Below, piece by piece: positions 6,715-53,551 of a DNA stretch of 62,310 nt. The notes under the pieces were generated by a model. That model worked only from the letters and a program-made list of their open reading frames with translations, ran no database searches and was not told the DNA's origin. This DNA is from Actinomadura sp. KC216 (GTDB taxonomy: Bacteria; Actinomycetota; Actinomycetes; Streptosporangiales; Streptosporangiaceae). The number at the start of each line of letters is the position of its first letter. Position 1 is the first letter of the stretch. The position numbers were made by a program, and so were the translations under genes. The stretch is taken from NCBI RefSeq assembly GCF_004348535.1, contig NZ_SMJX01000009.1, forward strand, positions 1 to 62,310, in the 5' to 3' direction.

Positions 6715-7766
6715 GGCGTGGTCGGCACCGTGATCTGGCCGGCGATGATCTGTTTCTTGAGCGCTTCCAGCCGGGGTTCGACGTCGTCGATGAACCCGCC
6801 GGACGTCGAATAGCCGACGCCGTTCTCCGCCAGGCCGAACCGGACGCTGCCCGACTGCGGCCGTCCGTCCGCGTAGTCCTTCACGAACTTCGACACGGCC
6901 ACGTCCAGGCTCTTCACTGCGCTGCTGAGCACATGGGGCTTCTGTGCGGCCTCCACGGTGTGGTACTGATCGCTGTCGACGCCGATGGCCCATTTGCCCG
7001 CGGCGACCGCGGCCTGGAAGACCCCGCGTCCCGACGCGCCGCTGGCGTGGTACACGACGTCGGCGCCGCCGTCGTACATGCCCTTGGCGGCCTCCTTCGC
7101 CTTGTCCGGGGAGGAGAACCCGGAGAAGTCCGGGGGCTGCGTCAGGTACTTGACGTCGACCTTGATACGCGGGTCGATCTTGCGGGCACCGGCCTCGTAC
7201 CCCGCCTGGAACTTCTGCTGCGGCGGCGTCTGCACCCCGGCCACGAATCCGATGTGGCCGGTCTTGCTCTTCAGGGCGGCGGCGGCGCCGACGAGATAGG
7301 ACGCCTGCTCCTCGCTGAAGACCAGCCCGGTCACATTCGGTGCCTTCACGGAGTCGTCGTCGATGACGGCGAACCGGGTCTTCGGGTAGGCGGAGGCGAG
7401 CTTCTTGACCGGGTCCTGGAAGAGAAAGCCGACGCAGATGATCGGGTTGTGGCCGGATTCCGCGAGCAGCCGGAGCAGCTCTTGGCGGTCGGTTCCGCCG
7501 GCATTGGGGCTGAGTTCCTTCACCTGGATGCCGAGCTCTCGCTTCAGCGAGTCGATGCCCGCGCCGACGCCGTCGTTGTACGACTTGTCTCCGCGGCCAC
7601 CGATGTCGTACACCACCCCGACCTTGACCGTCGACTGCTTCTTGCCGGCCGAGGCGGGCCCGGTGCCGGATGTCGCGGCAGAGCCGCCGGAACCGCCGCA
7701 TCCGGCGAGCACCACGGCCATGAGCATGGCGACCGCCGCCGCCCCCGCCGTTCGAAGTCTGGGCAT
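6711..7766 (-). CDS. BMP-family nucleoside-binding lipoprotein
   Basis: This 351-residue extracytoplasmic solute-binding protein is anchored by lipidation. The N-terminus has a short charged segment, a hydrophobic core and the lipobox LAGC, with Cys at about residue 23, followed by a Gly/Ser-rich linker. The mature part starts TVKVGVVYDIGGRGDKSYND, the hallmark of BMP/PnrA purine nucleoside receptors, and contains FQAAVAAGKWAIGVDSDQ near the hinge. It is the first gene of the importer operon, with a good ribosome site (GAGGAGGG) just before ATG 7766. It faces the adenosine deaminase gene across a 140-bp promoter region, which supports adenosine or a related nucleoside as ligand. Confidence 0.92.
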   Translation of the reverse strand: MPRLRTAGAAAVAMLMAVVLAGCGGSGGSAATSGTGPASAGKKQSTVKVGVVYDIGGRGDKSYNDGVGAGIDSLKRELGIQVKELSPNAGGTDRQELLRLLAESGHNPIICVGFLFQDPVKKLASAYPKTRFAVIDDDSVKAPNVTGLVFSEEQASYLVGAAAALKSKTGHIGFVAGVQTPPQQKFQAGYEAGARKIDPRIKVDVKYLTQPPDFSGFSSPDKAKEAAKGMYDGGADVVYHASGASGRGVFQAAVAAGKWAIGVDSDQYHTVEAAQKPHVLSSAVKSLDVAVSKFVKDYADGRPQSGSVRFGLAENGVGYSTSGGFIDDVEPRLEALKKQIIAGQITVPTTP

Positions 7767-9426: not shown

Positions 9427-10447
9427 GTGACGGCGAGCAGCAGTGACATCGAGAAGGCGGCCGGTGTGCTGCGCGCGGGCGGTTTGGTGGCCTTCCCGAC
9501 CGAGACCGTCTACGGTCTGGGCGCCGACGCCACCGACAGCGCCGCGGTCGCGCGTACCTTCACCGTCAAGGGGCGTCCGCCGTCCCACCCGTTGATCGTC
9601 CACATCGGCGGCGCCCAGCACCTGGACCAGTGGGTCGCCGAGGTGCCCGCGACCGCGCGCCTGCTGGCCGAACGCTTCTGGCCGGGACCACTCACGCTGG
9701 TGCTAAGGCGCGATCCCCGGGTGCCTCTGGAAGCGACCGGTGGTCTGGAGACGGTGGCCGTGCGGGTACCCGACCACCCCGTCGCACTCGCGCTGCTGTC
9801 GGCCTTCGGCGGCGGTCTCACGGCCCCCTCAGCCAACCGCTTCGGCTCGGTCAGCCCCACCACGGCCGGCCACGTCCGTGCCGAGCTTGGGGATGCCGTC
9901 GATTTCGTGCTGGACGGCGGCCCCTGCCAGGTCGGCGTCGAGTCCACCATCCTCGACCTCACCGGCCTCGACACCACAGGTGACACCACGGGCGGGGCCC
10001 CGAGCATCCTGCGGCCCGGCGGAGTGACGCGCGAAGACCTCGAAACGGTACTGGGGCGCCCGCTCGCGGTCCCGTCGACCAGCCGCGTCCGGGTGCCCGG
10101 CCAGTATCCCTCCCACTACGCGCCGCGGGCGCGGGTCGTCCTGGTCGAGCCCGAGAAGGTCATCGCCGAAGCCGAACTCGCGCAGGAGTTGGGGCACCGG
10201 GTGGGCGTGCTCGTTCCCCCCTCCTTCACCGGCACCCCCTCCTTCACAGAGCGTGCGGTCAGGGCGCACGCCGTGGTTTCCCTCCCCGGCTCGATGGCCG
10301 CCTACGCGCGCGGGCTGTACGCCTTCTTGCGCGAGCTCGACGAGCAGGGGTGCGACCTCATCGTCGCCTCCTTACCAGTGGAGGAGGGGCTGGGGCTGGA
10401 TCGCCAACCGGCTCCGCCGGGCCGCGGGGCCCCGCCCGTCCGCGTGA
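9427..10447 (+). CDS. L-threonylcarbamoyladenylate synthase (Sua5/YwlC type), C-terminus frameshifted
   Basis: Makes threonylcarbamoyl-AMP for the t6A37 modification of ANN-decoding tRNAs. The YrdC domain is intact from residue 1: GGLVAFPTETVYGLGADA, KGRPPSHPLIVH, FWPGPLTLVL and LTAPSANRFGSVSPTTA, followed by the Sua5 linker STILDLT, LRPGG, the PGQYPSHYAP motif and most of the C-terminal domain. Near 10395-10402 the frame slips: the uninterrupted frame runs on to 10707 as Arg/Pro/Ser-rich nonsense antisense to the STAS gene. The other frame gives the expected end IANRLRRAAGPRPSA with a stop at 10447. A 2-bp loss or sequencing error is likely. The catalytic core should be unaffected. Start is GTG 9427. 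Confidence 0.8.
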
Positions 10448-14156: not shown

Positions 14157-14501
14157 TTGGCATTGGTGATACCCGACGTCCTGGAAGAAAGCTGCGCGAC
14201 CCGTCAGGCGCTGGAGCGACTGGCGGCCAAGTGGCGGATCCTGCTGATCTACGCGCTGCTCGCCGGACCGCAGCGGCACGCCGAACTGCGCCGCAGGCTA
14301 CCCGGCATCACGCAAAAGGTCCTGACCGAGACCCTGCGGAACATGGAACGTGACGAGCTGGTCGAACGACGGGTGCTCAAAGACACCGCCCCACAGCATG
14401 TCGAGTACGCCCTGACCGCACTCGGCAAAACCCTCCAGCAGCCGCTAGCCGCCATCTGCACCTGGGCGCTGGAGCACCCCAGCGCCACACTCAACGAATG
14501 A
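14157..14501 (+). CDS. HxlR-family winged-helix regulator
   Basis: A 114-residue single-domain winged-helix protein with the HxlR pattern: a Cys near the N-terminus (ESCATRQALERLAAKWRILLIYALL), then the recognition segment AELRRRLPGITQKVLTETLRNMERDELVERRV and the wing YALTALGKTL. Cys-containing members often sense electrophiles or oxidants. TTG 14157 sits 5 bp after a GGGAG ribosome site and is the best start, with GTG 14166 as the alternative. Divergent from the MBL-fold gene, so probably its regulator. Confidence 0.85.
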   Translation: MALVIPDVLEESCATRQALERLAAKWRILLIYALLAGPQRHAELRRRLPGITQKVLTETLRNMERDELVERRVLKDTAPQHVEYALTALGKTLQQPLAAICTWALEHPSATLNE

Positions 14502-15251
14502 CATCCGCACATCGGCATGAGCGGACGTTGTCACCCGTCCGCCATGCGCAGGTGTGCAGACAGTGAGCCGTGCTAATCGAGAGCCCGACCACGTGGCACG
14601 ACTACAAGATCCAACGCGCGGCGAGTGCGGCACGGGCACCATCTCCACTCTCAGGATGACCGAGTTCCTGCGCGACTGTCCCACTCGAGGGCAGGCCAGG
14701 CGTCGGGGTGCGGCCGACCCGTCATCAAGCAGCGGAGTGCGCTCAGCTCACCGGACACCCACCGCCCGCTCGAGGACCGAACCACACGTGCCTGAAGTGA
14801 GCCGTGCCTTCGCCCCTCCCCTGCGCCGAACCGATACTCCGCCAACCGTCGGCGGTGACGTCGGGGACGGCCTAGAGCAGCACGCCGCCGTCGCAGCGGA
14901 ATCGTGTCGACTGGCCGCGCTCCCACCGACTACACGGAACCCCTGGCAAGATCAAGACCCAAGTTGAGAGCACAGCAGCCGGACGCACGAAGCCCGGACC
15001 GGCGGGCCCTGCCACCACGTCCGGGGCCCGCCTGAAGCCGCGACCGCGACCTTTCACGCACAGGCTCCACACACGCGCCGAACCTTGTCGGCGGTCCGCG
15101 AGGAGCGTCCAGTGATGGCACCGTGATGGCACAAACGGCGCCCTTCTGCGCCCCACGAGACCCAACGAGCCCACACGAAGGACCCCCGCGCAGCCACGCT
15201 GACCTTGCCAAACCCACCATGGCCAACCTGGGCCCCACGACCGAGGTCACT
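14502..15251. other. Intergenic region with no supported gene
   Basis: About 750 bp follow the HxlR gene without a convincing reading frame; frames present lack family motifs and ribosome sites. The sequence is the flank of the tRNA-like scar that begins at 15252, so it may be left over from an integrated element. Confidence 0.4.
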
Positions 15252-15298
15252 CTCCTAAAGCGGGTGCCGCAGGTTCGAATCCTGCCGGAGGCGCCCCA
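15252..15298 (+). other. 3' half of a tRNA-Arg(CCU)-like gene, probable attachment-site scar
   Basis: The segment starts in an anticodon loop (CTCCTAA, anticodon CCT) and continues through the 3' anticodon strand, variable loop, a perfect T-arm (GCAGG / TTCGAAT / CCTGC, 15269-15285) and an acceptor 3' strand CGGAGGC, ending CCCCA. The sequence 5' of the loop (CCGAGGTCACT) cannot form the 5' anticodon strand, D-arm or acceptor strand, so this is not a working tRNA. Identity starting at the anticodon loop is the usual signature of site-specific integration into a tRNA 3' end. No integrase is visible nearby. Confidence 0.7.
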
Positions 15299-41508: not shown

Positions 41509-42582
41509 TCATCCCGTGGTCAGTGCGACGGTCGGGGAAAGGCGGGCGGCGCGCAGGGCCGGGTAGAGGCCGGCGAGCGCGCCGATGAGGAGGGTGGCGG
41601 CGAGACCGCCGGCCAGTGCCCAGGGCGGGATCACCGGCGGCAGGTCCCGGGCGGTCGCGTACGCGGTCGTCACCACGGCGCCCGCGGCGGCTCCGGCCAG
41701 CCCTCCCAGGCCGGACAGCAGGAGCGACTCGGTCAGGAACTGCAGCCGGATCTGCCCCCGGGTGACGCCCAGCGAGCGCCGCAGACCGATCTCGCCGCGC
41801 CGCTCCAGCACCGAGATCACCATCGTGTTGGCGACGCCGACACCGCCCACCAGCAGCGCGATCGCGCCGACCCCAAGCAGCAGGTCGGTGAAGGCCCTGG
41901 CCGCCAGCCCGTCGGACGGCCGGCTCACCGTGACCTGCTCGGGGTTGCGCGGGTCGGCGGTCCGGGCCAGCACCGCGCGGACGTCCTCGACGGTGTCGCC
42001 CGCGGACCGCTCGTAGATCGTGGTCGGGTGCCCGTCGAAGCCGAGGAGCCGCTGCGCCACCGGCCAGCCGACGAGCGCGGCGCGGTCCACGCCGGGGGGC
42101 TTGAACTCGGCCGGCGACAGCGGGATGGGTTCCCCGGCACGCCACACCTCGTGCGCGTCCTCGTCGAGCTCGATGTCGGCGAACACCAGCCGGGCGGGCC
42201 GCTCGGCGCGGCCGTCCCGGAAGCGGCGCAGTACCGCCTCGATGCGGGCCACGACCTCCTCCAGGCTGAACGGCTTGGTGACGTAGTCGTCCCCGCCCAG
42301 GCGCAGGCCGCGGACCCGGTCCTGCACCGCGTCCCGGGCGGTGAGGTACAGCACCGGCGTCCGGTCGCCGCCCGACCGGAGCCGCCGGACGACGTCGAAG
42401 CCGTCCAGGTCGGGGAGCATCACGTCGAGCACGATGAGGTCCGGGCGGTGGCGCTGCGCGGCCTGGACGGCGGCGGTCCCGGACGTGGCCGTCAGCACGG
42501 CGAACCCGCTGTGGCCCAGGCTCACCGACAGCAGTTCGAGGATGTCGGGCTCGTCCTCGACCACGAGGAGGCGTGCGGTCAT
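41509..42582 (-). CDS. Chimeric response regulator - FtsX/MacB permease fusion
   Basis: A 357-residue in-frame hybrid. Residues 1-125 are an intact OmpR-type receiver (Glu9-Asp10, phospho-acceptor Asp53 in LIVLDVMLPDLDGFDVV, Lys103 in YVTKPFSLEEV). Residues 130-161 are the first part of the winged-helix output domain (LVFADIELDEDAHEVW...LSPAEFK). At about residue 162 the sequence changes to the end of a MacB/FtsX permease: GWPVAQRLLGFDG, VRAVLARTADPRNPEQVTVSRPSDGLAARAF-type periplasmic part, then three membrane helices with GGVGVANTMVISVLERRGEIGLRRSLG and LIGALAGLYPALRAARLSP. The recognition helix, kinase, ABC ATPase and permease front half are all missing. An in-frame deletion is the likely origin. 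Confidence 0.8.
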   Translation of the reverse strand: MTARLLVVEDEPDILELLSVSLGHSGFAVLTATSGTAAVQAAQRHRPDLIVLDVMLPDLDGFDVVRRLRSGGDRTPVLYLTARDAVQDRVRGLRLGGDDYVTKPFSLEEVVARIEAVLRRFRDGRAERPARLVFADIELDEDAHEVWRAGEPIPLSPAEFKPPGVDRAALVGWPVAQRLLGFDGHPTTIYERSAGDTVEDVRAVLARTADPRNPEQVTVSRPSDGLAARAFTDLLLGVGAIALLVGGVGVANTMVISVLERRGEIGLRRSLGVTRGQIRLQFLTESLLLSGLGGLAGAAAGAVVTTAYATARDLPPVIPPWALAGGLAATLLIGALAGLYPALRAARLSPTVALTTG

Positions 42583-42662: not shown

Positions 42663-44015
42663 GTGTACATATCAGGGCAAAGTGCACCAGTGGCATCAGA
42701 ACCGGTGCGGTTCTCGGCCCGGGGAGCGACCAGCGTGGCTGACGCACGGCGAGACGGCCCGCACGAATGGCCGGAGACGCTCGACGTCGCGTCCCTGCTG
42801 GGACGGGGATGGCGGCCGACGCCCTTCCGCGAGTTCGTCCTCAAGGTGCACAGCCGCTGCAACCTGTCGTGCGACTACTGCTACATGTACGAGATGGCCG
42901 ACCAGGGCTGGCGGCGCCAGCCGCGCAGGATGGCCAGGCCGACCGTGGACCGGGTGGCGGAACGCATCGCCGAGCACGCACGCGCCAAGCTCCTGGACCA
43001 GGTGGACGTGACCCTGCACGGGGGCGAACCCCTGCTCGCCGGCCTCGACCACCTGCGCTACACGATCGAGAAGGTGCGGGACGCGTGCGCGCCGGATGTC
43101 GAGGTCCGCTTCCACGTCCAGACCAACGGCGTCCTGCTCGACCGGCCGTTCCTCGACCTCTTTCTTGAGCACGGCGTGCGGGTGGGCGTCAGCCTGGACG
43201 GCGACGAAGAGGGCCACGACCGGCATCGCCGGGCGAGCAACGGGCACGGCAGCTTCCAGTCCGTGCAGGCGGGCCTTGAGCGGCTCTGCGACGAGCGCTA
43301 CCGGCGGCTGTTCAGCGGCCTGCTGTGCACGGTCGAGCTGCGGAACGACCCGGTGCGGACGTACGAGGCGATGCTCGGTTTCGAGCCGCCCGCCATCGAC
43401 TTCCTCTTGCCGCACGGAAACTGGGACGCGCCTCCACCCGGACGGCCGCCGGATACCTCCACGCCTTACGGCGACTGGCTCGTCGCCGCGTTCGACCGCT
43501 GGTACAGGTCGCGGGAGAAGCACACGAGGGTGCGGCTGTTCGACGACATCATGATGCTGCTGCTCGGGCGGCCCGCCGGGAGCGAGGCGGTGGGGCTCTC
43601 CGCCATCGCCGTCGCGGTGGTGGAGACGAACGGGCGGATCGAGCAGGTCGACTCGCTCAAGTCCGCGTACGAGGGCGCGTCCGCGACCGTGCTGCACGTG
43701 TCCCGCGACCCGTTCGAGGCCGCGCTGCTGCTGCCGCCGATCGCCGCCCGGCAGATCAGGGGCCTGGCGCTGGCCGAGCAGTGCCGGGCGTGCCGGCTGC
43801 GGCTCGTCTGCGGTGCCGGGCACTACGTGCACCGGTACCGGAGCGGAAGCGGCTTCCGCAATCCGTCGGTGTACTGCCATGACCTCCAGCGCCTGATCAC
43901 CCACGTGCACGCCGAGGTCTCCCGGGAGGTCGCCACGATCCGCGCCCGCCGCGACGCCTCGACCACGGCGACCGCCGAGGCCGCCGCGAAAGCCGCGACC
44001 GCGGCGACCGCCTGA
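42663..44015 (+). CDS. fxsB: FxsB-family radical SAM/SPASM cyclophane-forming peptide maturase
   Basis: A 450-residue radical SAM enzyme of the FxsB family, which installs three-residue cyclophane crosslinks in ribosomal peptides. The 4Fe-4S cluster cysteines are Cys66, Cys70 and Cys73 in HSRCNLSCDYCYMYEMADQG; the spacing and YMYE continuation are family typical. LHGGEPLL is the GGE motif; HVQTNGVLLD and GVSLDGDEEGHDRHR are later SAM-domain elements. The SPASM-type C-terminal cysteines lie in EQCRACRLRLVCGAGHYVHRY and VYCHDLQ. A Thr/Ala-rich tail ends the protein. There is no fused HExxH hydroxylase domain, unlike longer members. Start GTG 42663. Its predicted substrate is the 49-residue peptide at 46817-46966. 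Confidence 0.9.
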   Translation: MYISGQSAPVASEPVRFSARGATSVADARRDGPHEWPETLDVASLLGRGWRPTPFREFVLKVHSRCNLSCDYCYMYEMADQGWRRQPRRMARPTVDRVAERIAEHARAKLLDQVDVTLHGGEPLLAGLDHLRYTIEKVRDACAPDVEVRFHVQTNGVLLDRPFLDLFLEHGVRVGVSLDGDEEGHDRHRRASNGHGSFQSVQAGLERLCDERYRRLFSGLLCTVELRNDPVRTYEAMLGFEPPAIDFLLPHGNWDAPPPGRPPDTSTPYGDWLVAAFDRWYRSREKHTRVRLFDDIMMLLLGRPAGSEAVGLSAIAVAVVETNGRIEQVDSLKSAYEGASATVLHVSRDPFEAALLLPPIAARQIRGLALAEQCRACRLRLVCGAGHYVHRYRSGSGFRNPSVYCHDLQRLITHVHAEVSREVATIRARRDASTTATAEAAAKAATAATA

Positions 44016-44039: not shown

Positions 44040-46574
44040 TCAGATCGGCGGCGGGTCGAAGTCGGCGTCCAGGTGGCGGCCCTCCATGAAGACGACGGCG
44101 TCCGGGTGATTCAGGGTGAGCGTTCGCCGGTAGGTCTCCAGGGTAGCGTCCTTCAGTTCGGTCGCCTCCTCCGTCCGTCCGGCGGCCATGAGGTCGGCCG
44201 AGAGGTTGGCGGCGCCGGTCAGGGTGAGCGGGTAGTGGTCCTCGAACAGCGCGCGCAGCCGCCGCAGGGTGTCCTCGCCGAGGCTGCAGGCCGCGTCGAA
44301 CTCGCCGAGCGCGGCCAGGTCGCTGGCCAGGTTGAGCGCCGTGGTCAGCGTGTAGTCGTGGTCGCGGCCGAGCCGCGCGTCCAGCGCGGCGAGCGCCCGC
44401 TCGTTCAGCTTCCGCGCCGCCTCCGCGTCGCCCTGGACGCGCCGCAGGATGGCCAGGTTGGTCAGGCACGCCGCGGTGAAGGGGTGCGTCTCCGGGAAGA
44501 TCTCCGCGTACCGGGCGGCCGAGTCGGCCGCCAGCTCCGTCGCCTCCTCCAGCCGGCCCGACGTGCGCCAGAGGTTGGACAGGCACACGGCGGCGGCGAG
44601 CGTGTCGGGGGACTTCAGCCCGTACAGCCGGACGCACCGCTCCTGCACCTGCGCCGCCAGCTCCTCGGCCCGCTCGAAGTCGCCGTACCTGCGCAGCGCG
44701 ACGGACAGGTCCTTCCCGATGCGGAGCGTCCAGTTGTGCTCGGGGCCGATCGCCTCCTGCGCGATGGCGTAGGCGTCCTCGCCGAGGTCGCACGCCTCCG
44801 AGAAGTCCCCGCACAGCCGGACGGCCCTGCCGAGCCCGTTCAGCGCGCTGAGCATGCTGGCCTTGACGATCGCGGGCCCCTGCCGCCGCCACCCGGAGTA
44901 CGCCCGGTTGTGCAGCTCCCGCGCCTTCCTGTAGTTGCTCACGAGGCCGTAGTCGAGAGCGAGGTTGTTCATGGCGCGGATGGTTCCGACATGGTCCGGG
45001 CCGTATTTGTCCTCGAAGCGGCGTACCGCGTCCTCGTCGCGCCGCAGCGCCTCGCGGAAGTCGCCGAGCGCCCTCAGGTCGGCGGCCGAGCCGCGCAGCG
45101 CGAACAGGGTGATGTCCTCGCTGGGGCCGAGCGTCTTCTCGGCGGTGCTGAGGACCTCGGCGTTGAGCTCGGTGACCTCGTCGTATCTGCCCAGTTCCCG
45201 CAGGGTGTTGGTGTGTTCGAACTTCGCGCGGATGACGTCGGGATGCTCGGGCCCGGACGCGGCGCTCCAGGTGTCGATGAGGCCCTTCGCGACGCTGGTC
45301 GCGGACGTGTAGTTGGCCGAGTTCCACAGGTAGCGCAGCATCCGGATGGCGAAGGCGCGGACTTCGGATACGCGGCAGTCGGCGACCGCCGCGGGACCCA
45401 GATGCCCCACGAGACCGGCGTACTTCGGCCAGTTCGACTCGTCGTTGGGGTCGCCCAGCTCGTAGGCGGCCAGGAGGAGATGCACCTCGTGCTGGTTGCG
45501 CTTGCGCTCTTCCGGGGACAGCTCGTCCTGCACCAGCTTCTGGACCAGGCGGTGGATCTGAATCGTCCGCCCCGGTATGTCCAGGCGGGCCAGCGCGTAC
45601 CTCCCCAGCTCACCGAACGCGCGCCCCAGCCGGATGGTGTCGTCGAGCAGTCCGGCCATCTCGGGACGCAGCCCCGCCGGCGCCGCGCTGAGGACCTCCC
45701 TGGGAATGGGTTCGGAGCCGAAGAACGCGCAGACCCGCAGCAGGTCCACCGCCTCCGGGAGGCTGTCGCTGAGGTTCGCGACCGAGACGCTCCACGCGGC
45801 CGTCATCGGCACCGGGTACTCGACGGGCCGCCCCTGGGAGAGCAGCTGGCTGGTGCGGTCGGCCAGCTGCTCCAGGTACTCCGGCACGGTCATGCCGCGC
45901 TCGAACAGCAGCGCGCCGGCCTGTTCCAGGGCCAACGGCAGGTCGCCCAGCTGCTCGGCGAGGCGGTCGGCGTCCTCGGGGCTGATGGAGTCGCGCACCC
46001 GCTTGGTGAGGAACTCGATGCTCTCGTCGCGGCGGAACACCTCCACGGGGACCGCGTCGACCAGGCTGGCCCAGCGGTGGTTGCGGGACGTGATCAGCAC
46101 GTGCCCGGGGTCCTGCGGGAGGATGTCGTACAGGTCTTCCGGCTGGTCGGCGTTGTCGAAGACGAGGAGCCACTTGTCGTAGGGGGTGCCGCGGCGCAGC
46201 GCGTCCAGGACGTTCTTCGCCGCCTCCTCGACCCCGGTCACGCTCGCCGGCGACAGCCCGAGGTGGGGCGCGAGGTCGGCGAGCACGGCCTTCACCAGGT
46301 ACTGCTGGTCGGCCGGAATCCACCAGACGACGTCGTAGGTGTGCCGGTAGCGGTAGACGTACTCCACGGCCGTCAGCGTCTTCCCGACGCCGCCCAGGCC
46401 GTGCAGCGCGTGCGGCTGCGGGACCACGGCGGTCATCCGCCCGGTGATCCCCTCGCGCAGGGTCGCCAGGAGCTCTTCCCTGCCGGTGAAATTCCTGTTG
46501 CGTGGCGGAACGTGTCCCCAGACCGGCGGGACGCGCGACTCCGGCGTTCCGGCGACTCCCTTTTCTCCGGCCAC
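44040..46574 (-). CDS. fxsT: FxSxx-COOH-system NB-ARC/TPR protein
   Basis: An 844-residue STAND ATPase typical of FxSxx-COOH loci. It starts PPVWGHVPPRNRNFTGREELLATLR, the hallmark opening of this family. The P-loop is HGLGGVGKT (Lys65), Walker B KWLLVFDNADQPEDL and sensor HVLITSRNHRW, with PLALEQAGALL in the ARC region. From about residue 420 onward, 42-residue TPR units repeat (NTLRELGRYDEVTELNAEVL, NLAILRRVQGDAEAARKLNERALA, NLASDLAALGEFDAACSLGEDTL). Kinesin-light-chain-like TPRs usually bind peptides or proteins. It is convergent with fxsB and divergent from the precursor gene, sharing the palindrome at 46683-46702. Start GTG 46574. Confidence 0.88.
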   Translation of the reverse strand: MAGEKGVAGTPESRVPPVWGHVPPRNRNFTGREELLATLREGITGRMTAVVPQPHALHGLGGVGKTLTAVEYVYRYRHTYDVVWWIPADQQYLVKAVLADLAPHLGLSPASVTGVEEAAKNVLDALRRGTPYDKWLLVFDNADQPEDLYDILPQDPGHVLITSRNHRWASLVDAVPVEVFRRDESIEFLTKRVRDSISPEDADRLAEQLGDLPLALEQAGALLFERGMTVPEYLEQLADRTSQLLSQGRPVEYPVPMTAAWSVSVANLSDSLPEAVDLLRVCAFFGSEPIPREVLSAAPAGLRPEMAGLLDDTIRLGRAFGELGRYALARLDIPGRTIQIHRLVQKLVQDELSPEERKRNQHEVHLLLAAYELGDPNDESNWPKYAGLVGHLGPAAVADCRVSEVRAFAIRMLRYLWNSANYTSATSVAKGLIDTWSAASGPEHPDVIRAKFEHTNTLRELGRYDEVTELNAEVLSTAEKTLGPSEDITLFALRGSAADLRALGDFREALRRDEDAVRRFEDKYGPDHVGTIRAMNNLALDYGLVSNYRKARELHNRAYSGWRRQGPAIVKASMLSALNGLGRAVRLCGDFSEACDLGEDAYAIAQEAIGPEHNWTLRIGKDLSVALRRYGDFERAEELAAQVQERCVRLYGLKSPDTLAAAVCLSNLWRTSGRLEEATELAADSAARYAEIFPETHPFTAACLTNLAILRRVQGDAEAARKLNERALAALDARLGRDHDYTLTTALNLASDLAALGEFDAACSLGEDTLRRLRALFEDHYPLTLTGAANLSADLMAAGRTEEATELKDATLETYRRTLTLNHPDAVVFMEGRHLDADFDPPPI

Positions 46575-46766: not shown

Positions 46767-46772
46767 TATATT
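46767..46772 (+). promoter_or_regulatory. Possible -10 element of the precursor gene
   Basis: TATATT stands out in a GC-rich stretch 45 bp before the precursor start. No good -35 hexamer is found 16-18 bp upstream (AGGAGA), so an activator or an alternative sigma factor may be needed. The palindrome ends 64 bp upstream. Confidence 0.35.
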
Positions 46773-46816
46773 GGGACGACGGCCCGAGCCGGGCAGCCGA
46801 TCCACAAGGAGGGATC

Positions 46817-46966
46817 ATGCCGCCACTCACCATCGATACCCAAGGAATCACGCCTGACCTCCTCCAGTCGGATGACAATCCGATTCTCACGGACGCGATC
46901 CAGGAAGTGATCAATCCGACCCGTACGGCGGCGGCCGACGCCACGGGTTGGAACAACGGCTTCTAG
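46817..46966 (+). CDS. Cyclophane RiPP precursor peptide ending WNNGF (FxsA-like variant)
   Basis: A 49-residue peptide with a strong ribosome site (AAGGAGGG, 46806-46813) before ATG 46817. The N-terminal 43 residues form an acidic leader with little Cys or aromatic content (MPPLTIDTQGITPDLL, then DDNPILTDAIQEVINP and an Ala-rich stretch). The C-terminus is GWNNGF. Trp45 is at -5 and Asn47 at -3 from the carboxyl end, the same positions as Phe and Ser in classical FxSxx-COOH precursors. A Trp-x-Asn core is a known three-residue cyclophane substrate pattern in other radical SAM families. With fxsB and fxsT flanking it, I infer a Trp45-Asn47 crosslink. The nSTAND1 gene follows 76 bp downstream on the same strand. 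Confidence 0.8.
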   Translation: MPPLTIDTQGITPDLLQSDDNPILTDAIQEVINPTRTAAADATGWNNGF

Positions 46967-47042: not shown

Positions 47043-49013
47043 ATGAGCGCCAACGCCCCATTCGTCGGCCCGCGCCCGTTCGACACGGCGGACGCGGCGA
47101 TCTTCCTGGGCCGCGCCGATGAGGCCGCCGCCCTGGCGGACGCCTGGCGCGGCAACCGGCTCACGGTGCTGCACGGCCCGGCGGGTGTCGGCAAGACCTC
47201 GCTGCTGAGCGCCGGCGTCCTGCCGAGGCTCGGTCCCGGCCCGGACGGCGGCGCCGAGGTGCTCCCGATCGGGCGCCCGGCGTTCACCGGCGACTTCCCG
47301 CTGGCCGCGCTCCCGGACCTCAACCGCTTCACGTTCGCGGTCCTGGCGTCCTGGTTCCCCGGCGAGCCGCCGACCCGGATCTCGGGCTCGTCGATCGCCG
47401 GGCTGCTCCGCCGGAGATCCCCCGGCGACCGCCCCGGCCGGGCCGGTGGCGAAGGGCCGTCCGGGCGGCCGCTGCTCGCCGCGGTCGACCACGCGGACCT
47501 GCTCTTCCCAGTGGACGGTGAACGGGCGCGGCATGCCGCGCGGTTCGCCGAGGAGCTGGTCGCGGCGCTCGCCGACTGCCCGCGCCTGCGCCTGCTCATC
47601 GCGGTCCGCACCGAGAACGTCGAGGAGCTGCTGGAGCTGCTGGCCCGGGCCGGGCTGCCTCCCTCCGCCGCGTCCCGGTTCCCGCTCCGCCCATTCGACC
47701 CGGACGCCGCCGTCCGCACGGTCAGCGGGCCCCTGGCCGGCACCGGCCACCCGCTCGCGGCGAGCGCCCGGCGGCTGGTCGACGACCTCGGCGGGGCCGA
47801 GCCCGGAGCCGAGCCCGGGAGCGATCACGGTATCGATCCCGCGCTCCTGCAGATCGTCTGCCGCCGCCTCTGGGACGAGTCCGCGTCCGGAACCGGGCCG
47901 CCGATCGCGCACCTGCCCGAACTCGTCGACCGGATCCTCCGCGACCACTGCCTCGGTGCCCTGGCGGCGACGGCGACCGACCATGGGAAGTACCCCGGCA
48001 CGCTCACGGAATGGTTCAGGAACGAGTTCGGCCACCGCCCCGGCGCGGCCCGCGAAGGCGGCGGGCGGGGAGCGGATGAGCCGTCCGGTTCGGTGATGGC
48101 CGCTCTGCTGGACGCGCGGCTGCTGTACGCGGAAGGACGTCCGGGCAGGCGCCGTTACCGCCTGCGGCAGGGCAGGCTCCGACCGGTGGTCCGGCGGCTC
48201 GACCCCGACGCCGCGGCGGCCGCGCGCGAGCGTCCCCGGCGGCTGGACGAGGCGGAGGCGGCGTTCACCGTCCGCGACCTCGGATCCGCCCGGAACCGCG
48301 CCCGCGCCGTGACCGAGGCGGCCACCGACGACCGGGAACGCGCGGCCGCCGAATGCCTGCTGGGCACCATCGCCTACGAGCACGGCGAGCAGCGTCTCGC
48401 CATCGAGCACTACGAGACCGCGGCCCGGGCGTACGGCGCGTTCGGGGACGCCGCGCACGTGGGCATGCTGCTCGCCGCGGTCGGCCGGTTGAAGATCGGC
48501 GACGGGCCGTCCGAGGCGGTGAACCGGCTGCGCGCCGCGCTGACCCGGCTGCCGGGCGACCTGTTCGTGAAGACGGCGCTCGCCCATGCGCTCTGGTACG
48601 CGGGACGCACCCAGGCGGCGCTCGCGATCCTCGACGACGCGCTCAGCCAGGACGGCGGCACGCCGGAGGCGCTCCGGCTGCGCGGTGAGCTGCTGGCCGA
48701 TCTCGGCCGCGGCGGGCCCGCGCTGCGGGACCTGGACCGCGTGAACTACGGGGACCGTCCGTCCAGCCGTGCCGCGTGGGCGCTGGCCACGCTGACCCAC
48801 ACCGGGATCGGCCCGGCCGGGACGGACGAGGTCGACCTGATCGACAGCGCCGACGACAGCGGGCCCGCCCTGCTGCGGGTGGCGAGGGTCCTGCGCCTCG
48901 GCGGCGAGGCCGACACGGCCGCCGGGCTGGCCGAACGGGCGGTCAGGGCGCGGCGCCCGCCGCTCCCCCGGCACCTGCATCCGGAGGCCGAGAAACTCAT
49001 GACCTCGGGATAG
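47043..49013 (+). CDS. nSTAND1-type ATPase with TPR region
   Basis: A 656-residue protein. The start FVGPRPFDTADAAIFLGRADEAAALADAW is the nSTAND1 (novel STAND) signature, followed by P-loop HGPAGVGKTSLLSAGVLPRL (Lys51), an acidic Walker B-like PLLAAVDHADLLF, and RLRLLIAVRTENVEELLELL with the sensor Arg. The ATPase ends near residue 390. Residues 395-650 are TPR-like helices (GTIAYEHGEQRLAIEHYETAARAYG, ALAHALWYAGRTQAALAILDDAL). It begins 76 bp after the precursor stop with no clear terminator between, so the two are probably co-transcribed. STAND proteins act as NTP-driven switches in signalling or defence. The partner effector is not obvious. Confidence 0.82.
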   Translation: MSANAPFVGPRPFDTADAAIFLGRADEAAALADAWRGNRLTVLHGPAGVGKTSLLSAGVLPRLGPGPDGGAEVLPIGRPAFTGDFPLAALPDLNRFTFAVLASWFPGEPPTRISGSSIAGLLRRRSPGDRPGRAGGEGPSGRPLLAAVDHADLLFPVDGERARHAARFAEELVAALADCPRLRLLIAVRTENVEELLELLARAGLPPSAASRFPLRPFDPDAAVRTVSGPLAGTGHPLAASARRLVDDLGGAEPGAEPGSDHGIDPALLQIVCRRLWDESASGTGPPIAHLPELVDRILRDHCLGALAATATDHGKYPGTLTEWFRNEFGHRPGAAREGGGRGADEPSGSVMAALLDARLLYAEGRPGRRRYRLRQGRLRPVVRRLDPDAAAAARERPRRLDEAEAAFTVRDLGSARNRARAVTEAATDDRERAAAECLLGTIAYEHGEQRLAIEHYETAARAYGAFGDAAHVGMLLAAVGRLKIGDGPSEAVNRLRAALTRLPGDLFVKTALAHALWYAGRTQAALAILDDALSQDGGTPEALRLRGELLADLGRGGPALRDLDRVNYGDRPSSRAAWALATLTHTGIGPAGTDEVDLIDSADDSGPALLRVARVLRLGGEADTAAGLAERAVRARRPPLPRHLHPEAEKLMTSG

Positions 49014-49244
49014 GCGACTGATGGGGCACCTTTCCATTCGTTGTCCCGCTGGGTGGGTCGCTCGCTGGGTAATCTCCCCGGATGAATCCGAGTCTCGTGA
49101 CCCGCTCTTCGGCGCCGGTAGGCGGTGGATCCTTAACATTTAGCGGCGGATCCTTACCATCGATGACCGCCCCGCCGGATGCGTGCGACCCGGCAGGTCG
49201 CACGCATTCGCGGAGGGCGACGGTCGTCAGAGGCCCGGCAGCCG

Positions 49245-50525
49245 ATGAGAGGGCGTGACTTCACGCTGCTGTGGAGCGCCTCGGCGGCCTCCCAGTTGGG
49301 TCACATGTGCGCCCTCACGGCCAATCCCCTGCTGGCGCTCCTGCTGACGGGCTCGCCGGTCGTGGCGGGCTGGGTGAGCGCGGCCAGCACGCTGCCCGCC
49401 CTGCTCATGCACCTGTCCGCGGGCTGGCTCGTCGACCGTTTCGACCGGCGCAAGCTGATGCTCGCCGGGCAGGCGGGACGGCTGGCGGCCGGGGTGCTCC
49501 CGGTCGGCGCGATCACCTTCCAGGAGTGGGCCGCCTCGCTGCTCATCCTCTTCGCCTTCTTCGAGGGCGTCTTCCTGGTGCTCTACCACGCCGCGGAGGT
49601 GACCGCGGTCCGGCACGTCGTGTCGTCCGCGAAGCTGCGGACGGCGCTGGCCACCAACGAGGCGCGCGGCCATCTCGCCCAGCTGCTCGGCAGGCCTCTC
49701 GGCGGCTTCCTCCTGGGCTGCGGAAAGTACCTTCCGCATTTGGTGGGCGTGCTGGCCTCGGTGTGGGCGATATTCGCGCTTTCCCTCATGCGCACAAAGA
49801 ATTTCCGGCCGCGCGACGTCCGTGATCCAGCAATGGCGGAACCGGATGACGCCGCCGCTTCCGTCTCCTTCCAGGCCGCCCTGCGGATCGTGCTCGGGAG
49901 CCCCTTTCTCCGCACCGTGCTCACCGTCGCCGCCGCCTGCAATTTCCTGTTCCAGGCGGTCGTGCTCTCGCTTCTGGTCCTGGCCAGGGAGCACGCGATG
50001 TCCGGCGGCCAGATCGGGCTGCTGCTGGCCACGTCCGGCATCTGCGGGCTCGCCGGGTCGATCGCCGCGCCGAAGATCGAGGAGCGGCTCGGGGACGGGC
50101 GGACGATCGGCGTCTGCATGGTGACCTGGACCGGGCTGACCCTCGTCGTCGCGGTGTTCGCCGACCCCGTCATCGGCCTGGTCGCCTGGGGCGGCCTGAG
50201 CCTGACGGGCGGACTCCTCAACTTCGCCCTCATCAACCACCAGACCGGGCGGGTGCCCGAGCACATGCTCGGCCGGGTCATGGGCGTCGGCCGCTTCGTC
50301 ACCGGCGGCGCCCTCCCCCTCGGCGCGCTGACCGCCGGATACCTCGTCGCGACGCTCGGGCCGCGGCACACCACCTGGCTGGCCTGCGCGGGCGTGTTCC
50401 TGGTGACCTGCGCGACCCCCTTCCTGATGCGTCCACCCATGCGCCCGCGTCCTCGTCCTCGTCCGCGTCCGCGCCTGCGTCTGTGTATGCGTGTGCGTCC
50501 GTGCGGGGTGCGGCGCTCGACGTAG
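49245..50525 (+). CDS. MFS transporter (enterobactin-exporter-like branch)
   Basis: A 426-residue 12-helix transporter. It begins MRGRDFTLLWSASAASQLG, as in macrolide and siderophore exporters, with the loop motif GWLVDRFDRRKLMLAGQAGRLAAG between helices 2 and 3, and NEARGHLAQLLGRPLGGFLLG in the first half. The last 30 residues are a run of RP/RL repeats from a simple-sequence DNA tract (about 50437-50520), unusual for the family and perhaps due to slippage. ATG 49245 fits homologues; ATG 49179 is in frame and cannot be excluded. It lies 230 bp after the nSTAND1 gene on the same strand and could export the modified peptide. Confidence 0.82.
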   Translation: MRGRDFTLLWSASAASQLGHMCALTANPLLALLLTGSPVVAGWVSAASTLPALLMHLSAGWLVDRFDRRKLMLAGQAGRLAAGVLPVGAITFQEWAASLLILFAFFEGVFLVLYHAAEVTAVRHVVSSAKLRTALATNEARGHLAQLLGRPLGGFLLGCGKYLPHLVGVLASVWAIFALSLMRTKNFRPRDVRDPAMAEPDDAAASVSFQAALRIVLGSPFLRTVLTVAAACNFLFQAVVLSLLVLAREHAMSGGQIGLLLATSGICGLAGSIAAPKIEERLGDGRTIGVCMVTWTGLTLVVAVFADPVIGLVAWGGLSLTGGLLNFALINHQTGRVPEHMLGRVMGVGRFVTGGALPLGALTAGYLVATLGPRHTTWLACAGVFLVTCATPFLMRPPMRPRPRPRPRPRLRLCMRVRPCGVRRST

Positions 50526-50657: not shown

Positions 50658-51743
50658 ATGTCCCACTCCAGCGCCCCCTGGACACCCAACGGGCTGTGCT
50701 CGCTCTTCGTCTGCGACATCGAGTCGTTCTCGACCGGCGCGCGGAGCGACGTCGTCCGGCACCGGCTCAGGCAGGCGCTCTACGACGGGCTGCACGCCGC
50801 GTTCGACGGCGCCGGGATCCCCTTCGCGTCCTGCTACCGCGAGGACCGCGGCGACGGCGTGCTGATCGTCCCGCCGCCGGACACCGACCCGGCCGCGCTG
50901 CTGGCACCCGTGGTCGAGCGGCTGCGGGCCGAGGTGCGGCGGCACAACGACGTCTCCAACGGCGCCGCGCGGATGCGGCTGCGGGTGGCGGTGCACACCG
51001 GGCAGGTCACCTCGGACCGGCACGGCCTGGTCGGGACGGCCGTCAACCACGCGTTCCGGATCCTGTCGGCCGGGCAGCTCCGGGAGGGCATGCGGCGGAC
51101 CGGGGCGGACCTGGCGGCGGTCGCGTCGGACCGCGTCCACGAGGACCTGATCCGGCACGGCCTGGGCCTGGTGGACCCTGGCGAGTACGAGCGGATCGTG
51201 GCGCGGGTGAAGGAGACCGAGGCGCCCGCCTGGATGCGGATTCCGGGCTTCCGCCCGCCGTTCCTCCCGGCCCCCGCCGCGCCGCCGACGATCGTCGACG
51301 CGCGCGTCCTGCCACCGGCGGAGCCCGCGCGGCGGCCGCCCGCGGCCCTCCCGCCGAAAGCTCCCGCTCGGCCGTCGCTGCCACCGCCGTCGGTGCCGCC
51401 GCCGCTGCCGCCGTCGGTGCCGCCGCCGCTGCCGCCGCCCGTCACGGTCGCCGACCCGCCCCCGGCGCTCGACGTCGCCGTGGAGCGCGCGATGTCCCTC
51501 CGGGAGCTCCGCGCGCGCCGCCTGCGCGACCAGATCGTCGCGGAGCTGCCGCTGCCGCTGGCCACCCGGCTCGGGACCCGGCCGGGCGGGGACGACCGCG
51601 CCGACCTGTACGCCATCGTCAGCGCCTGCCGCGACCACCCGCGCGGGCTGGCCGAGCTGCTGCGCGCCGTCAGGAGGTTCGCGGGGGACTCGCCGCAGGT
51701 GGCGGAGTTCGGAGAGTCGATCGACGCGCTGGAGCACGCGTAA
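50658..51743 (+). CDS. Cyclase-homology protein with effector-associated-like C-terminal domain
   Basis: A 361-residue three-part protein. Residues 1-170 resemble a class III nucleotide cyclase fold: LCSLFVCDIESFSTGAR, YREDRGDGVLIVPPP, MRLRVAVHTGQVTSDRHGLVGTAVNHAFRIL. The second catalytic Asp region and transition-state residues are not all present, so activity is uncertain. Residues 205-285 are a Pro/Ala linker with PPPSVPPPLPP repeats. The last 80 residues (SLRELRARRLRDQIV, ADLYAIVSACRDHPRGLAELLRAVRRFAGDS) look like the small helical effector-associated domains that couple effectors to STAND or kinase partners. It sits directly before the kinase-WD40 gene (2-bp gap), so the two are likely partners. 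Confidence 0.72.
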   Translation: MSHSSAPWTPNGLCSLFVCDIESFSTGARSDVVRHRLRQALYDGLHAAFDGAGIPFASCYREDRGDGVLIVPPPDTDPAALLAPVVERLRAEVRRHNDVSNGAARMRLRVAVHTGQVTSDRHGLVGTAVNHAFRILSAGQLREGMRRTGADLAAVASDRVHEDLIRHGLGLVDPGEYERIVARVKETEAPAWMRIPGFRPPFLPAPAAPPTIVDARVLPPAEPARRPPAALPPKAPARPSLPPPSVPPPLPPSVPPPLPPPVTVADPPPALDVAVERAMSLRELRARRLRDQIVAELPLPLATRLGTRPGGDDRADLYAIVSACRDHPRGLAELLRAVRRFAGDSPQVAEFGESIDALEHA

Positions 51744-51745
51744 AG

Positions 51746-53551
51746 GTGCCCCTCCAACCCCTGCTGGAAGGCGACGCCAGGCACATCGGCGAGTACCGGG
51801 TGCTCGCCCGGCTGGGCGCGGGCGGGCAGGGCGTCGTCTACCTGGGCGAGGCACCGGACGGCCGGCGCGTCGCGATCAAGCTGCTGCACCCCTGGTTCGG
51901 CGGCAGCCCGCAGGGCAGGCGGCTGTTCGAGCGGGAGATCAGGCTCGCCGGGCGGGCCACCGGCTACACGGCCCGCGTCCTCGGCTCCGGCGAGCAGGCA
52001 GGGCGCCCGTACGTCGTCAGCGAGTACATCGAGGGCGAGTCGGTGGAGGACCGGGTCCGGCGGGCCGGGCCGTACGGCCGCGCGGAGGTCGTGGCGCTCG
52101 CCGCGGCCATCGCCTCGGCGCTCGCCGCCGTCCACGCCGCCGGGCTCGTGCACTGCGACTTCAAACCGGGCAACGTCCTCACCGGCCCCTACGGCGCACG
52201 CATCGTCGACTTCGGCATCGCGCGCGCCCTGGAGACCATCGCGCACCGCGACCACGAGCGCCGGGGCACCCCCGCCTACATGGCGCCGGAGCAGGTCACG
52301 GGCGGACGGCTGGGCCCGCCCACCGACGTGTTCGCCTGGGGGTCGACGATGGCGTTCGCCGCGACCGGCACGCCGCCGTTCGGCCACGGCGACGCCGAGA
52401 ACGGCCACGGCACCATGTATCGGATCGTCAATCAGGAGCCGGACCTCGGCGGCGTGCCCGAGCCGCTGCGCGCCGTCGTCTCCGCCTGCCTGCGCAAGGA
52501 CCCGGCCGACCGTCCCACCGCCTCCGGGGTGATGTCGATGCTCGGCCAGGGCGGGCCGGCGCCGTCCTCCGGCGGGCCGCCGGTGCCGTCGCCGTTCGGC
52601 GTCCCGATCGGCGATCCTCTGACGGGCCACACCGGGACGATCCGGTGCGTCGCGTACGGGTCGTGCGGTGACCTGCCCCTCGCGGTCACCGGCGCGCACG
52701 ACCGGACGGCCCGCGTCTGGGACCTCGCCGCGCGGCGGCGGCACGGGCCGCCGCTCCGGCACGACGCGCCCGTGCTCGCGGTCGCCTGCCGCGAGGAGGC
52801 CGGGCTGCCGATCGCCGTCACGGGCTGCCAGGACGGCACCCTGACCGTGTGGGACCTCGCCGCCGGAGAGCGGGTCGGCGAGCCGCTGCGCGGTCACGGC
52901 GGCGCGGTGACGTCGGTCGCGACCGCCGTCGTCGGCGGCAGGACGCTGGCGGTCAGCGCGAGCGACGACCGCACCGCGCGCCTGTGGGACCTCGCCGCTG
53001 GCCGCCAGATCGGCTCGCCCCTCACCGACGACGCCAGCCCCATGCCGGTGGCCTGCGGCGAGCTCGACGGGTCCGCGGTGGCGATCATCGGCGGGATGTG
53101 GGACCAGTCCGTCCGCGTCCTCGACCTCGGCGACCGCCGGTGGACCGACCTGCGGCTGACCAGCCACACCGACTCGGTCGTCGCGGTGGCCTACGGGCGG
53201 CTCGCGGGCCGGCCCGTCGCGGTGACCGGCGGCTACGACCGGACGGTCCGCGTCTGGGACCTCGGGACGCGGCGCGAGCTCGGCAGCCCGCTCGTCCACG
53301 AGAGCGCGGTCCTGTCCGTGACGTTCGGCATGCGCGGCGGCGAGCCGATCCTGCTGGTCGGCGGCGCCGACGGCGCGGTCCAGGGGTGGAGCCTGCCGTC
53401 GCGCCGATCGCTCGGCGACCCGCTCGCCGCCGGGCCGTCCGCGCGCGGCGGCGCCGTCCCGGTCGCGTTCGGGCGGATCGACGGCCGGCCGATCGCCATC
53501 ACCTGCCCCGAGGACCTCGGCGTCCGCCTCTGGAGCCTCGGCACCCCCTGA
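51746..53551 (+). CDS. Hanks-type Ser/Thr kinase with C-terminal WD40 propeller
   Basis: A 601-residue cytoplasmic protein. The kinase domain (about 16-270) has the glycine loop LGAGGQGVVYLG, VAIK Lys45, catalytic loop HCDFKPGN (His136, Asp138, Lys140, Asn143; Cys replaces Arg of HRD), DFG 155-157 and the APE-type MAPEQVTGG. With no Arg before the catalytic Asp it belongs to the class not dependent on activation-loop phosphorylation. Six to seven WD40 blades follow (LTGHTGTIRCVAYG, AHDRTARVWDLAARR, LRGHGGAVTSVATA, GYDRTVRVWDLGTRR). No transmembrane helix separates them. GTG 51746 starts 2 bp after the cyclase-like stop, so the genes are coupled. Confidence 0.88.
   Translation: MPLQPLLEGDARHIGEYRVLARLGAGGQGVVYLGEAPDGRRVAIKLLHPWFGGSPQGRRLFEREIRLAGRATGYTARVLGSGEQAGRPYVVSEYIEGESVEDRVRRAGPYGRAEVVALAAAIASALAAVHAAGLVHCDFKPGNVLTGPYGARIVDFGIARALETIAHRDHERRGTPAYMAPEQVTGGRLGPPTDVFAWGSTMAFAATGTPPFGHGDAENGHGTMYRIVNQEPDLGGVPEPLRAVVSACLRKDPADRPTASGVMSMLGQGGPAPSSGGPPVPSPFGVPIGDPLTGHTGTIRCVAYGSCGDLPLAVTGAHDRTARVWDLAARRRHGPPLRHDAPVLAVACREEAGLPIAVTGCQDGTLTVWDLAAGERVGEPLRGHGGAVTSVATAVVGGRTLAVSASDDRTARLWDLAAGRQIGSPLTDDASPMPVACGELDGSAVAIIGGMWDQSVRVLDLGDRRWTDLRLTSHTDSVVAVAYGRLAGRPVAVTGGYDRTVRVWDLGTRRELGSPLVHESAVLSVTFGMRGGEPILLVGGADGAVQGWSLPSRRSLGDPLAAGPSARGGAVPVAFGRIDGRPIAITCPEDLGVRLWSLGTP

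Follow-up and report, generated by a model that had tools for sequence, protein, structure and literature searches.

An FxsA-type precursor peptide with a putative Trp-Asn cyclophane core in an Fxs locus of Actinomadura sp. KC216

The window analysed here, a stretch of 62,310 nucleotides from Actinomadura sp. KC216, contains a conserved short gene that lies in an Fxs locus together with an intact FxsB gene, and whose product carries Trp and Asn in the register of the two ring residues of its relatives. This peptide probably comes from a branch of the Fxs systems with Asn cores, as an FxsA-type substrate whose usual Phe has been replaced by Trp, and it is most likely closed to a predicted Trp45-Asn47 link by an ordinary FxsB. 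It would then be the precursor of a triceptide, a ribosomally synthesized peptide with a three-residue cyclophane.

The precursor gene and its conservation

The frame at 46817-46966 encodes the peptide MPPLTIDTQGITPDLLQSDDNPILTDAIQEVINPTRTAAADATGWNNGF, which ends G-W-N-N-G-F-stop, with Trp45 encoded by TGG (46949-46951) and Asn47 by AAC (46955-46957). The initial annotation had described a 49-residue frame with a strong ribosome site and a WNNGF end, an FxsT-type neighbour and an FxsB-family gene in the same locus, and all of these were recovered at the places it gave (Table 1). Frames of 30 to 100 amino acids are permitted at 495 places in the window, 23 of them with an upstream AAGGAGG, AGGAGG, GGAGG or AGGAG, and a single one of these 23, the present frame, has an [FWYH]-x-[SN]-x-x end. 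A looser scan of related loci (aromatic-x-[SNTDRK]-x-x with a weaker ribosome word) returned many junk frames. The C-terminal motif by itself is unconvincing; it is conservation that establishes the frame as a real gene. A sigma-70 consensus scan gave no site at the upstream TATATT, a promoter and terminator scan of the window found none, and a search of Rfam gave no match.

Table 1. Features of the Fxs locus in the window, and short frames at the corresponding place in related loci
Feature	Position	Strand	Remarks
FxsB radical SAM/SPASM maturase	42663..44015	+	TIGR04269; start uncertain, 42735 is another GTG
FxsT, NB-ARC with tetratricopeptide repeats	44040..46574	-	NF040586 962.5 bits, cut-off 300; NB-ARC and TPR in Pfam
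TATATT, possible -10 element	46767..46772	+	Identical across four aligned loci
Ribosome-binding site AAGGAGG	46806..46812	+	4 nt 5' of ATG; GGAGG conserved in four aligned orthologous loci
FxsA-type precursor gene	46817..46966	+	49 aa, ATG start; core G-W45-N46-N47-G-F-COOH; orthologues, profile matches
Codons Trp45/Asn46/Asn47	46949..46957	+	Residues 45 and 47 are the predicted cyclophane residues; putative crosslink
nSTAND1 NTPase with TPR	47043..49013	+	Relative in 26/27 clade loci
MFS transporter, candidate exporter	49179..50525	+	Relative in 26/27 clade loci; putative export role
Protein with effector-associated domain EAD2	50658..51743	+	In 4/27 clade loci
Protein kinase fused to WD40 repeats	51743..53551	+	Start approximate; match in 5/27 clade loci, same place in 3 (window, L071, L014)
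F-D-N frames, FxsT-nSTAND gap	L015, L017-L019, L021-L026, L028, L030, L033, L037, L039, L041, L073, L075		

With the peptide as query, a database of 5.77 billion proteins yielded the window's own entry and one hypothetical protein of Actinomadura soli, 81% identical. Among 59 genomes the single peptide found the A. soli orthologue at an E of 9.5e-19 and that of A. bangladeshensis at 5.4e-9, and two further matches at E about 0.06 lie inside frames of at least 500 residues. A profile of four orthologues, run against 341 genomes of the family, found five genomes at E <= 5.2e-20, namely the window, A. soli, Actinoallomurus iriomotensis, A. bangladeshensis and a fifth genome (G134), of which the first four are rows of the searching profile and only the fifth is new. 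The next six matches, at E values from 9e-5 to 0.004, comprise one short frame ending F-D-N-F-I (L136) and five places within longer frames. The E of 4.8e-13 that the A2 profile gives to the window frame is circular, the frame being a row of that profile, as is most of the 341-genome scan; the non-circular tests are the single-peptide search, the clade-free canonical profiles and the hhalign comparison of clade with canonical precursors. The precursors of L077, L131 and L136 were placed in the set by hand, the stop-to-stop frame of L077 being above the 250-residue limit of the scan.

The five clade precursors end WNNGF (window), FENRV, FENRF, FDNKL and FDNKL; Asn47 is conserved in all five, and Gly44 in four, with Ser at this position in L131. 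By the initial annotation, a conserved precursor of another kind in this position, ending in a true F-x-S motif, would have counted against the proposal; the orthologues have no such end. The order FxsB-FxsT-precursor-nSTAND-MFS is common to A. soli, A. bangladeshensis and Actinoallomurus iriomotensis, and in the short stretch from G134 the precursor lies between FxsT and nSTAND. Over codons 1 to 36 the window and A. soli genes show 8 synonymous and 3 non-synonymous differences (P = 0.0019 for at least 8 of 11 synonymous when a simple neutral expectation sets the synonymous share at 0.27), and judged from these codon differences the leader is under purifying selection. The placing of its orthologues between FxsT and nSTAND, the selection on its leader and the intact FxsB in its locus show the frame to be a real gene. 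The peptide matches no NCBIfam model at E <= 10, TIGR04268 (cut-off 28 bits) included, and no Pfam family at 0.01, as would suit a chance open frame, but against orthologues, purifying selection and synteny the probability of this is negligible.

Order FxsB, FxsT on the opposite strand, nSTAND and MFS is found in 25 of 27 loci of the FxsB clade described below, the exceptions being L032, a contig of 4.2 kb, and L081, which is arranged differently. An EAD2 gene followed by a kinase-WD40 gene after the MFS gene is also seen in L071 and L014, and L077 has the EAD2 gene, where its contig ends. Elsewhere in the window, the frame at 41509-42582 on the reverse strand carries a response-regulator receiver domain (residues 1-141 scanned) in one frame with a different tail, which reads, by eye, like the end of an FtsX/MacB-type permease; it looks like a deletion fusion.

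Relation to the FxSxx-COOH precursors

The precursor and FxsB genes are 2.8 kb apart in the same locus, and the same cassette occurs in the three orthologous loci. A literal F-x-S-x-x C-terminus is absent from the window precursor, and F-x-N is common among its relatives. TIGR04268 matches 32 of 39 aligned precursors at E <= 10, the window precursor not among them. By hhalign, the profile of the five clade members aligned with that of 33 canonical precursors from which the clade was omitted, at a probability of 92.4 (P 5.2e-7, 44 columns) and in a register that sets W45 on the Phe column. The window peptide alone matched the clade-free canonical profile weakly (E 0.12, best of 909 segments), and with three bridging rows also left out it came fourth at E 1. 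Against the 33-row canonical profile it scored 6.9 bits (E 0.26), the best of 2000 shuffles reaching 6.5 bits; the same profile gave E values of 1.3e-5 for A. soli, 7.7e-4 for Actinoallomurus iriomotensis, 0.13 for L131 and 63 for L077, a clear match for the first two of these four orthologues and not for the others. Homology of the leader to canonical FxsA holds at the level of the clade profile, the window peptide alone matching weakly, and the window precursor is of the FxsA kind, by sequence only just. The proposal that the frame is a precursor belonging with FxsB is borne out by orthologues, synteny and the match of clade to family profile, and the placing of Trp and Asn at the Phe and Ser columns of FxSxx precursors by both the column placement and the hhalign register.

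The ring positions

Cores were compared in a pool of 209 rows, 153 of them distinct and 152 placed (L091 was not placeable), drawn from 49 profile-found precursors (48 of 80 related-FxsB loci plus the window), three placed by hand, 26 proteins, and 130 profile-found places in the family that were read among the matches listed. All 152 placed precursors have an aromatic residue at the first ring position (i), 149 Phe, 2 His and 1 Trp, the last being the window, so that Trp lies within the observed constraint. At i+2 there are 79 Ser, 50 Asn (window included), 16 Ala and 7 Gln, and two proteins with F-x-N cores, P0003 and P0004, already bear the name FxSxx-COOH in public records. On these column counts and names, Asn at i+2 is a frequent variant within the family, and Trp belongs to the window precursor alone. 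The W-x-N core had been put forward as a departure from the family, and this is right for Trp, which is unusual and found in one genome; the Asn is not new, being present in 50 of the 152 and in all 24 clade relatives with a readable core.

We also considered W-x-N as a precursor class, and found no second Trp at the ring column in the 152 placed precursors. There was likewise none in the 18 loci of a class search (L308-L325, some of which repeat counted places, and L324 of which has an unreadable core), in 25 loci found with a profile of the F-D-N frames described below (L297 lacking a core), or in 24 proteins of that type. The initial annotation had proposed a product class outside the strict FxSxx-COOH definition and suggested a search for short frames ending W-x-N-x-x beside FxsB homologues; among the relatives read no such frame was present, and the data support a single W-x-N member and not a new W-x-N product class. 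Precursors of the FxsA type with His replacing the ring Phe were seen in L167, L168 and L257 (GHQSSV, RHDSMI), and a Nocardiopsis flavescens locus (L070) has two FxsA-type precursors with F-A-N cores, at 6628-6813 and 9557-9808.

A change of Phe to Trp (TTC to TGG) requires two base changes, and the intermediates, Leu and Cys, are non-aromatic. Four of the last six residues of the window precursor differ from A. soli, its linker is one residue longer, and the alignment of the core region is ambiguous at the DNA level. A double frameshift was weighed as the origin of the Trp codon; one in-frame 3-base insertion together with substitutions is the simpler candidate. As the window comes from a single draft genome of 667 contigs with a contamination estimate of 5.23, and given the ambiguous alignment, the Trp codon might be an artefact of sequencing, assembly or contamination, but the frame, stop codon and flanks are intact and several further differences from A. 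soli surround the codon, and we consider an artefact highly improbable.

The FxsB maturase

The window FxsB scores 462.5 bits against TIGR04269 (cut-off 370), and it is the only FxsB above cut-off in its own genome. In the alignment of 81 FxsB rows Cys66, Cys70 and Cys73 are present in all 81, Cys374, Cys377 and Cys383 in 80 and Cys405 in 78, and the window enzyme keeps both the radical SAM CxxxCxxC and the cysteines of the SPASM region. Its closest solved structure is ChlB (9gm3; 269 bits, E 6.2e-79). In a tree of the 81 proteins, made by a quick method, the window FxsB is sister to the A. soli enzyme (91%) within a clade of 27 members. It departs from the 80% consensus at ten positions, eight of them common to A. 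soli. The remaining departures are Ser69, inside the CxxxCxxC loop and seen in 4 further rows, and Ala314, seen in 2. Three of its residues are absent from all 80 relatives, all in variable columns, and at no conserved position of the 81 aligned rows does it have a unique change.

A second precursor for this enzyme, with an F-x-S end, was also sought in the genome. TIGR04268 gave no match in the window contig and none above cut-off anywhere, the FxsA profile found the window precursor only (next E 0.079), and the F-D-N profile had no match. A 77-residue frame on another contig of the same genome (L002:1465-1698, contig C193) matches FxsB model positions 3-70 only, at 94 bits, and is probably the remnant of a second FxsB gene.

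The Trp could mark a core in decay, the leader being intact and Trp45 no longer supporting ring closure, in which case the peptide would be unmodified or poorly modified. This would fit with Trp being a singleton among the 152 placed precursors, with the altered last residues and longer linker relative to A. soli, and with there being no matching change in FxsB. However, a core decaying at random should not retain an aromatic residue, Asn47 and precisely two residues beyond it, the differences in the leader are mostly synonymous and the FxsB cysteines are conserved, and we hold decay to be unlikely. We return to the reading in which FxsB does close the ring: because its cysteines are kept and it has no unique change at a conserved position, an ordinary FxsB is expected, from the chemistry of the family, to make the Trp45-Asn47 link.

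The HExxH gene and a second precursor family

In other Fxs loci FxsB and FxsT are separated by a further gene, which in the three cases scanned matches TIGR04267, an aKG-HExxH-type peptide beta-hydroxylase. No relative of three HExxH proteins was found in the window at E <= 1e-3; with the window counted, 26 of the 27 clade loci show no HExxH gene, only L086 having one. Among the 26 clade relatives all 24 with a readable core have F-x-N, L032 and L081 being unread. Over the 81 loci, those without an HExxH gene have Asn at i+2 in 33 (window included; 18 of these labels are frames picked by eye with the F-D-N core in view, 17 of which later aligned well) and Ser in one (L079), with 4 unread. Those with an HExxH gene have Ser in 18, Asn in 13 (the labels of L085, L087 and L088 come from a regular expression), Ala in 5 and Gln in 1, with 6 unread. 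One Asn label, that of L091, is doubtful, and L070 with its F-A-N cores is counted as unread. Asn is thus present in 33 of 34 read HExxH-free loci, and the residue is mixed where HExxH occurs. On the FxsB tree the HExxH state changes only 4 times and Asn 5 times, and a pair test is without power. Because some of the labels were set by hand and the state changed only four times, the association is a correlation by descent and not a demonstrated rule; that Asn is functionally tied to the lack of HExxH is unproven. In the Acrocarpospora locus L079, which has no HExxH gene and an F-S-S core, the gene at 14360-15256 between the precursor and nSTAND reads SIR2-like by eye.

The FxsA profile had no match in 20 of the HExxH-free loci. 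In eighteen of these, which belong to the clade of 27, a short frame that has a ribosome site and encodes an F-D-N core lies between FxsT and nSTAND (Table 1); it was picked by eye out of frames scored for their ribosome sites. The F-S-S frame of L079 is at the same place, and L080 has nothing there. Seventeen of the 18 align well, with a PG-x-x-R...E leader, and L026 only loosely; a second F-x-N motif is present in L015, L028 and L075. The set does not match the canonical FxsA profile (hhalign probability 1.2) and matches that of the window clade faintly (probability 27), and none of its members has an NCBIfam match at E <= 10. Run across the family, a profile of the F-D-N set gave 25 places, 24 with F-D-N. 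The 24 database proteins of this kind (23 F-D-N, one F-D-S) have no Pfam domain and are named only hypothetical or uncharacterized protein. With no NCBIfam match and no informative names, frames that stand at the expected place in 18 loci would be overlooked by genome mining based on families.

We lean, by a little over even chances, towards a broader reading of the clade. Its Fxs loci, nearly all free of HExxH, may form a separate, transporter-linked branch of Asn-core triceptides that has two families of precursor, of which NCBIfam lacks one, and the window FxsB may have moved naturally to a Trp substrate, and so to an indole-Asn cyclophane, while close relatives act on Phe. The wider F-D-N branch would matter more than the Trp variant.

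The predicted product

We take IPR026335 to be the FxsB family. In the sections of a review drawn on here, MscB, placed under IPR026335, joins Phe C4 to Ser C-beta, and the family chemistry links an aromatic ring at i through a C-C bond to C-beta of i+2; Trp is joined to Asn C-beta through C6 by XncB and through C7 by OscB, and XncB or OscB also join Phe C4 to Asn (PMC11002830). The passages on cyclophane enzymes in the literature consulted mention no FxsB-family enzyme acting on a native Trp.

By this chemistry FxsB would recognize the conserved leader, which extends from residue 1 to around 36, and form a bond between the aromatic ring at -5 and the beta carbon at -3. The usual core in the clade is F-[E/D]-N-x-x-COOH, with Phe changed to Trp in the window precursor, and the product would most likely be a Trp45-Asn47 cyclophane, with a mass change of -2 Da. 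Both FxsT and the nSTAND NTPase are ATPases of the STAND type with tetratricopeptide repeats and probably sense or guard the product, which the MFS protein may export.

FxsB might also act on the window peptide and make another Trp product, for example a link to Asn46, an unusual middle residue; the known three-residue enzymes do vary in the indole carbon that they use, as XncB and OscB show, but the triceptide enzymes described in those review sections join i to i+2 (PMC11002830) and Asn47 is the conserved Asn of the clade, and we think another product very unlikely. Enzymes that form three-residue cyclophanes attract interest as tools for stapling peptides, and a natural pair of FxsB enzymes, about 90% identical, that face Phe-Glu-Asn and Trp-Asn-Asn offers a clean test of aromatic tolerance.

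Comparison with known systems

The nearest precursors, the F-x-N-x-x-COOH peptides of A. soli, A. bangladeshensis, Actinoallomurus iriomotensis and G134, share the orthologous leader, the place in the locus and the Asn; they differ in having Phe in place of the window's Trp and a linker shorter by one residue. With the FxSxx-COOH systems (FxsA, TIGR04268, matured by FxsB, TIGR04269) the window shares FxsB and FxsT, an aromatic residue at i, a short residue at i+2 and, at clade level, a related leader, whereas it has Trp for Phe, Asn for Ser, no TIGR04268 match and no HExxH gene.

Trp-Asn cyclophanes are known among the triceptides of XncB and OscB, according to the review sections cited (PMC11002830), but the window FxsB is of another family, scoring 123 bits against XyeB and 89.1 bits against GrrM/OscB, with cut-offs of 450 and 310. 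The radical SAM domain of ChlB, the nearest solved structure by sequence, is described as fused to an aKG-HExxH hydroxylase (PMC12636437), whereas the window locus is without an HExxH gene.

The FxSxx peptide-processing systems of Kaur et al. 2020, in the parts of that paper used here, resemble this locus in having a peptide, a radical SAM/SPASM enzyme, an AP-ATPase with tetratricopeptide repeats and an EAD-domain protein nearby, the AP-ATPase coupled to the peptide genes of the window being FxsT (NB-ARC and TPR). They differ in that a zincin-like metallopeptidase is named as their core (PMC7159879), and the matching gene, which we assume to be the TIGR04267 HExxH gene, is absent here; a protein with the motif of that metallopeptidase is described as acting as a hydroxylase (PMC12636437). 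Kaur et al. suggest that the peptide is a toxin or a signal, and describe standalone peptide systems besides those with a VMAP/vWA ternary core (PMC7159879). We suggest that FxsT, the nSTAND ATPases and, in four clade loci, EAD2 fit the conflict-system reading set out in that paper (PMC7159879).
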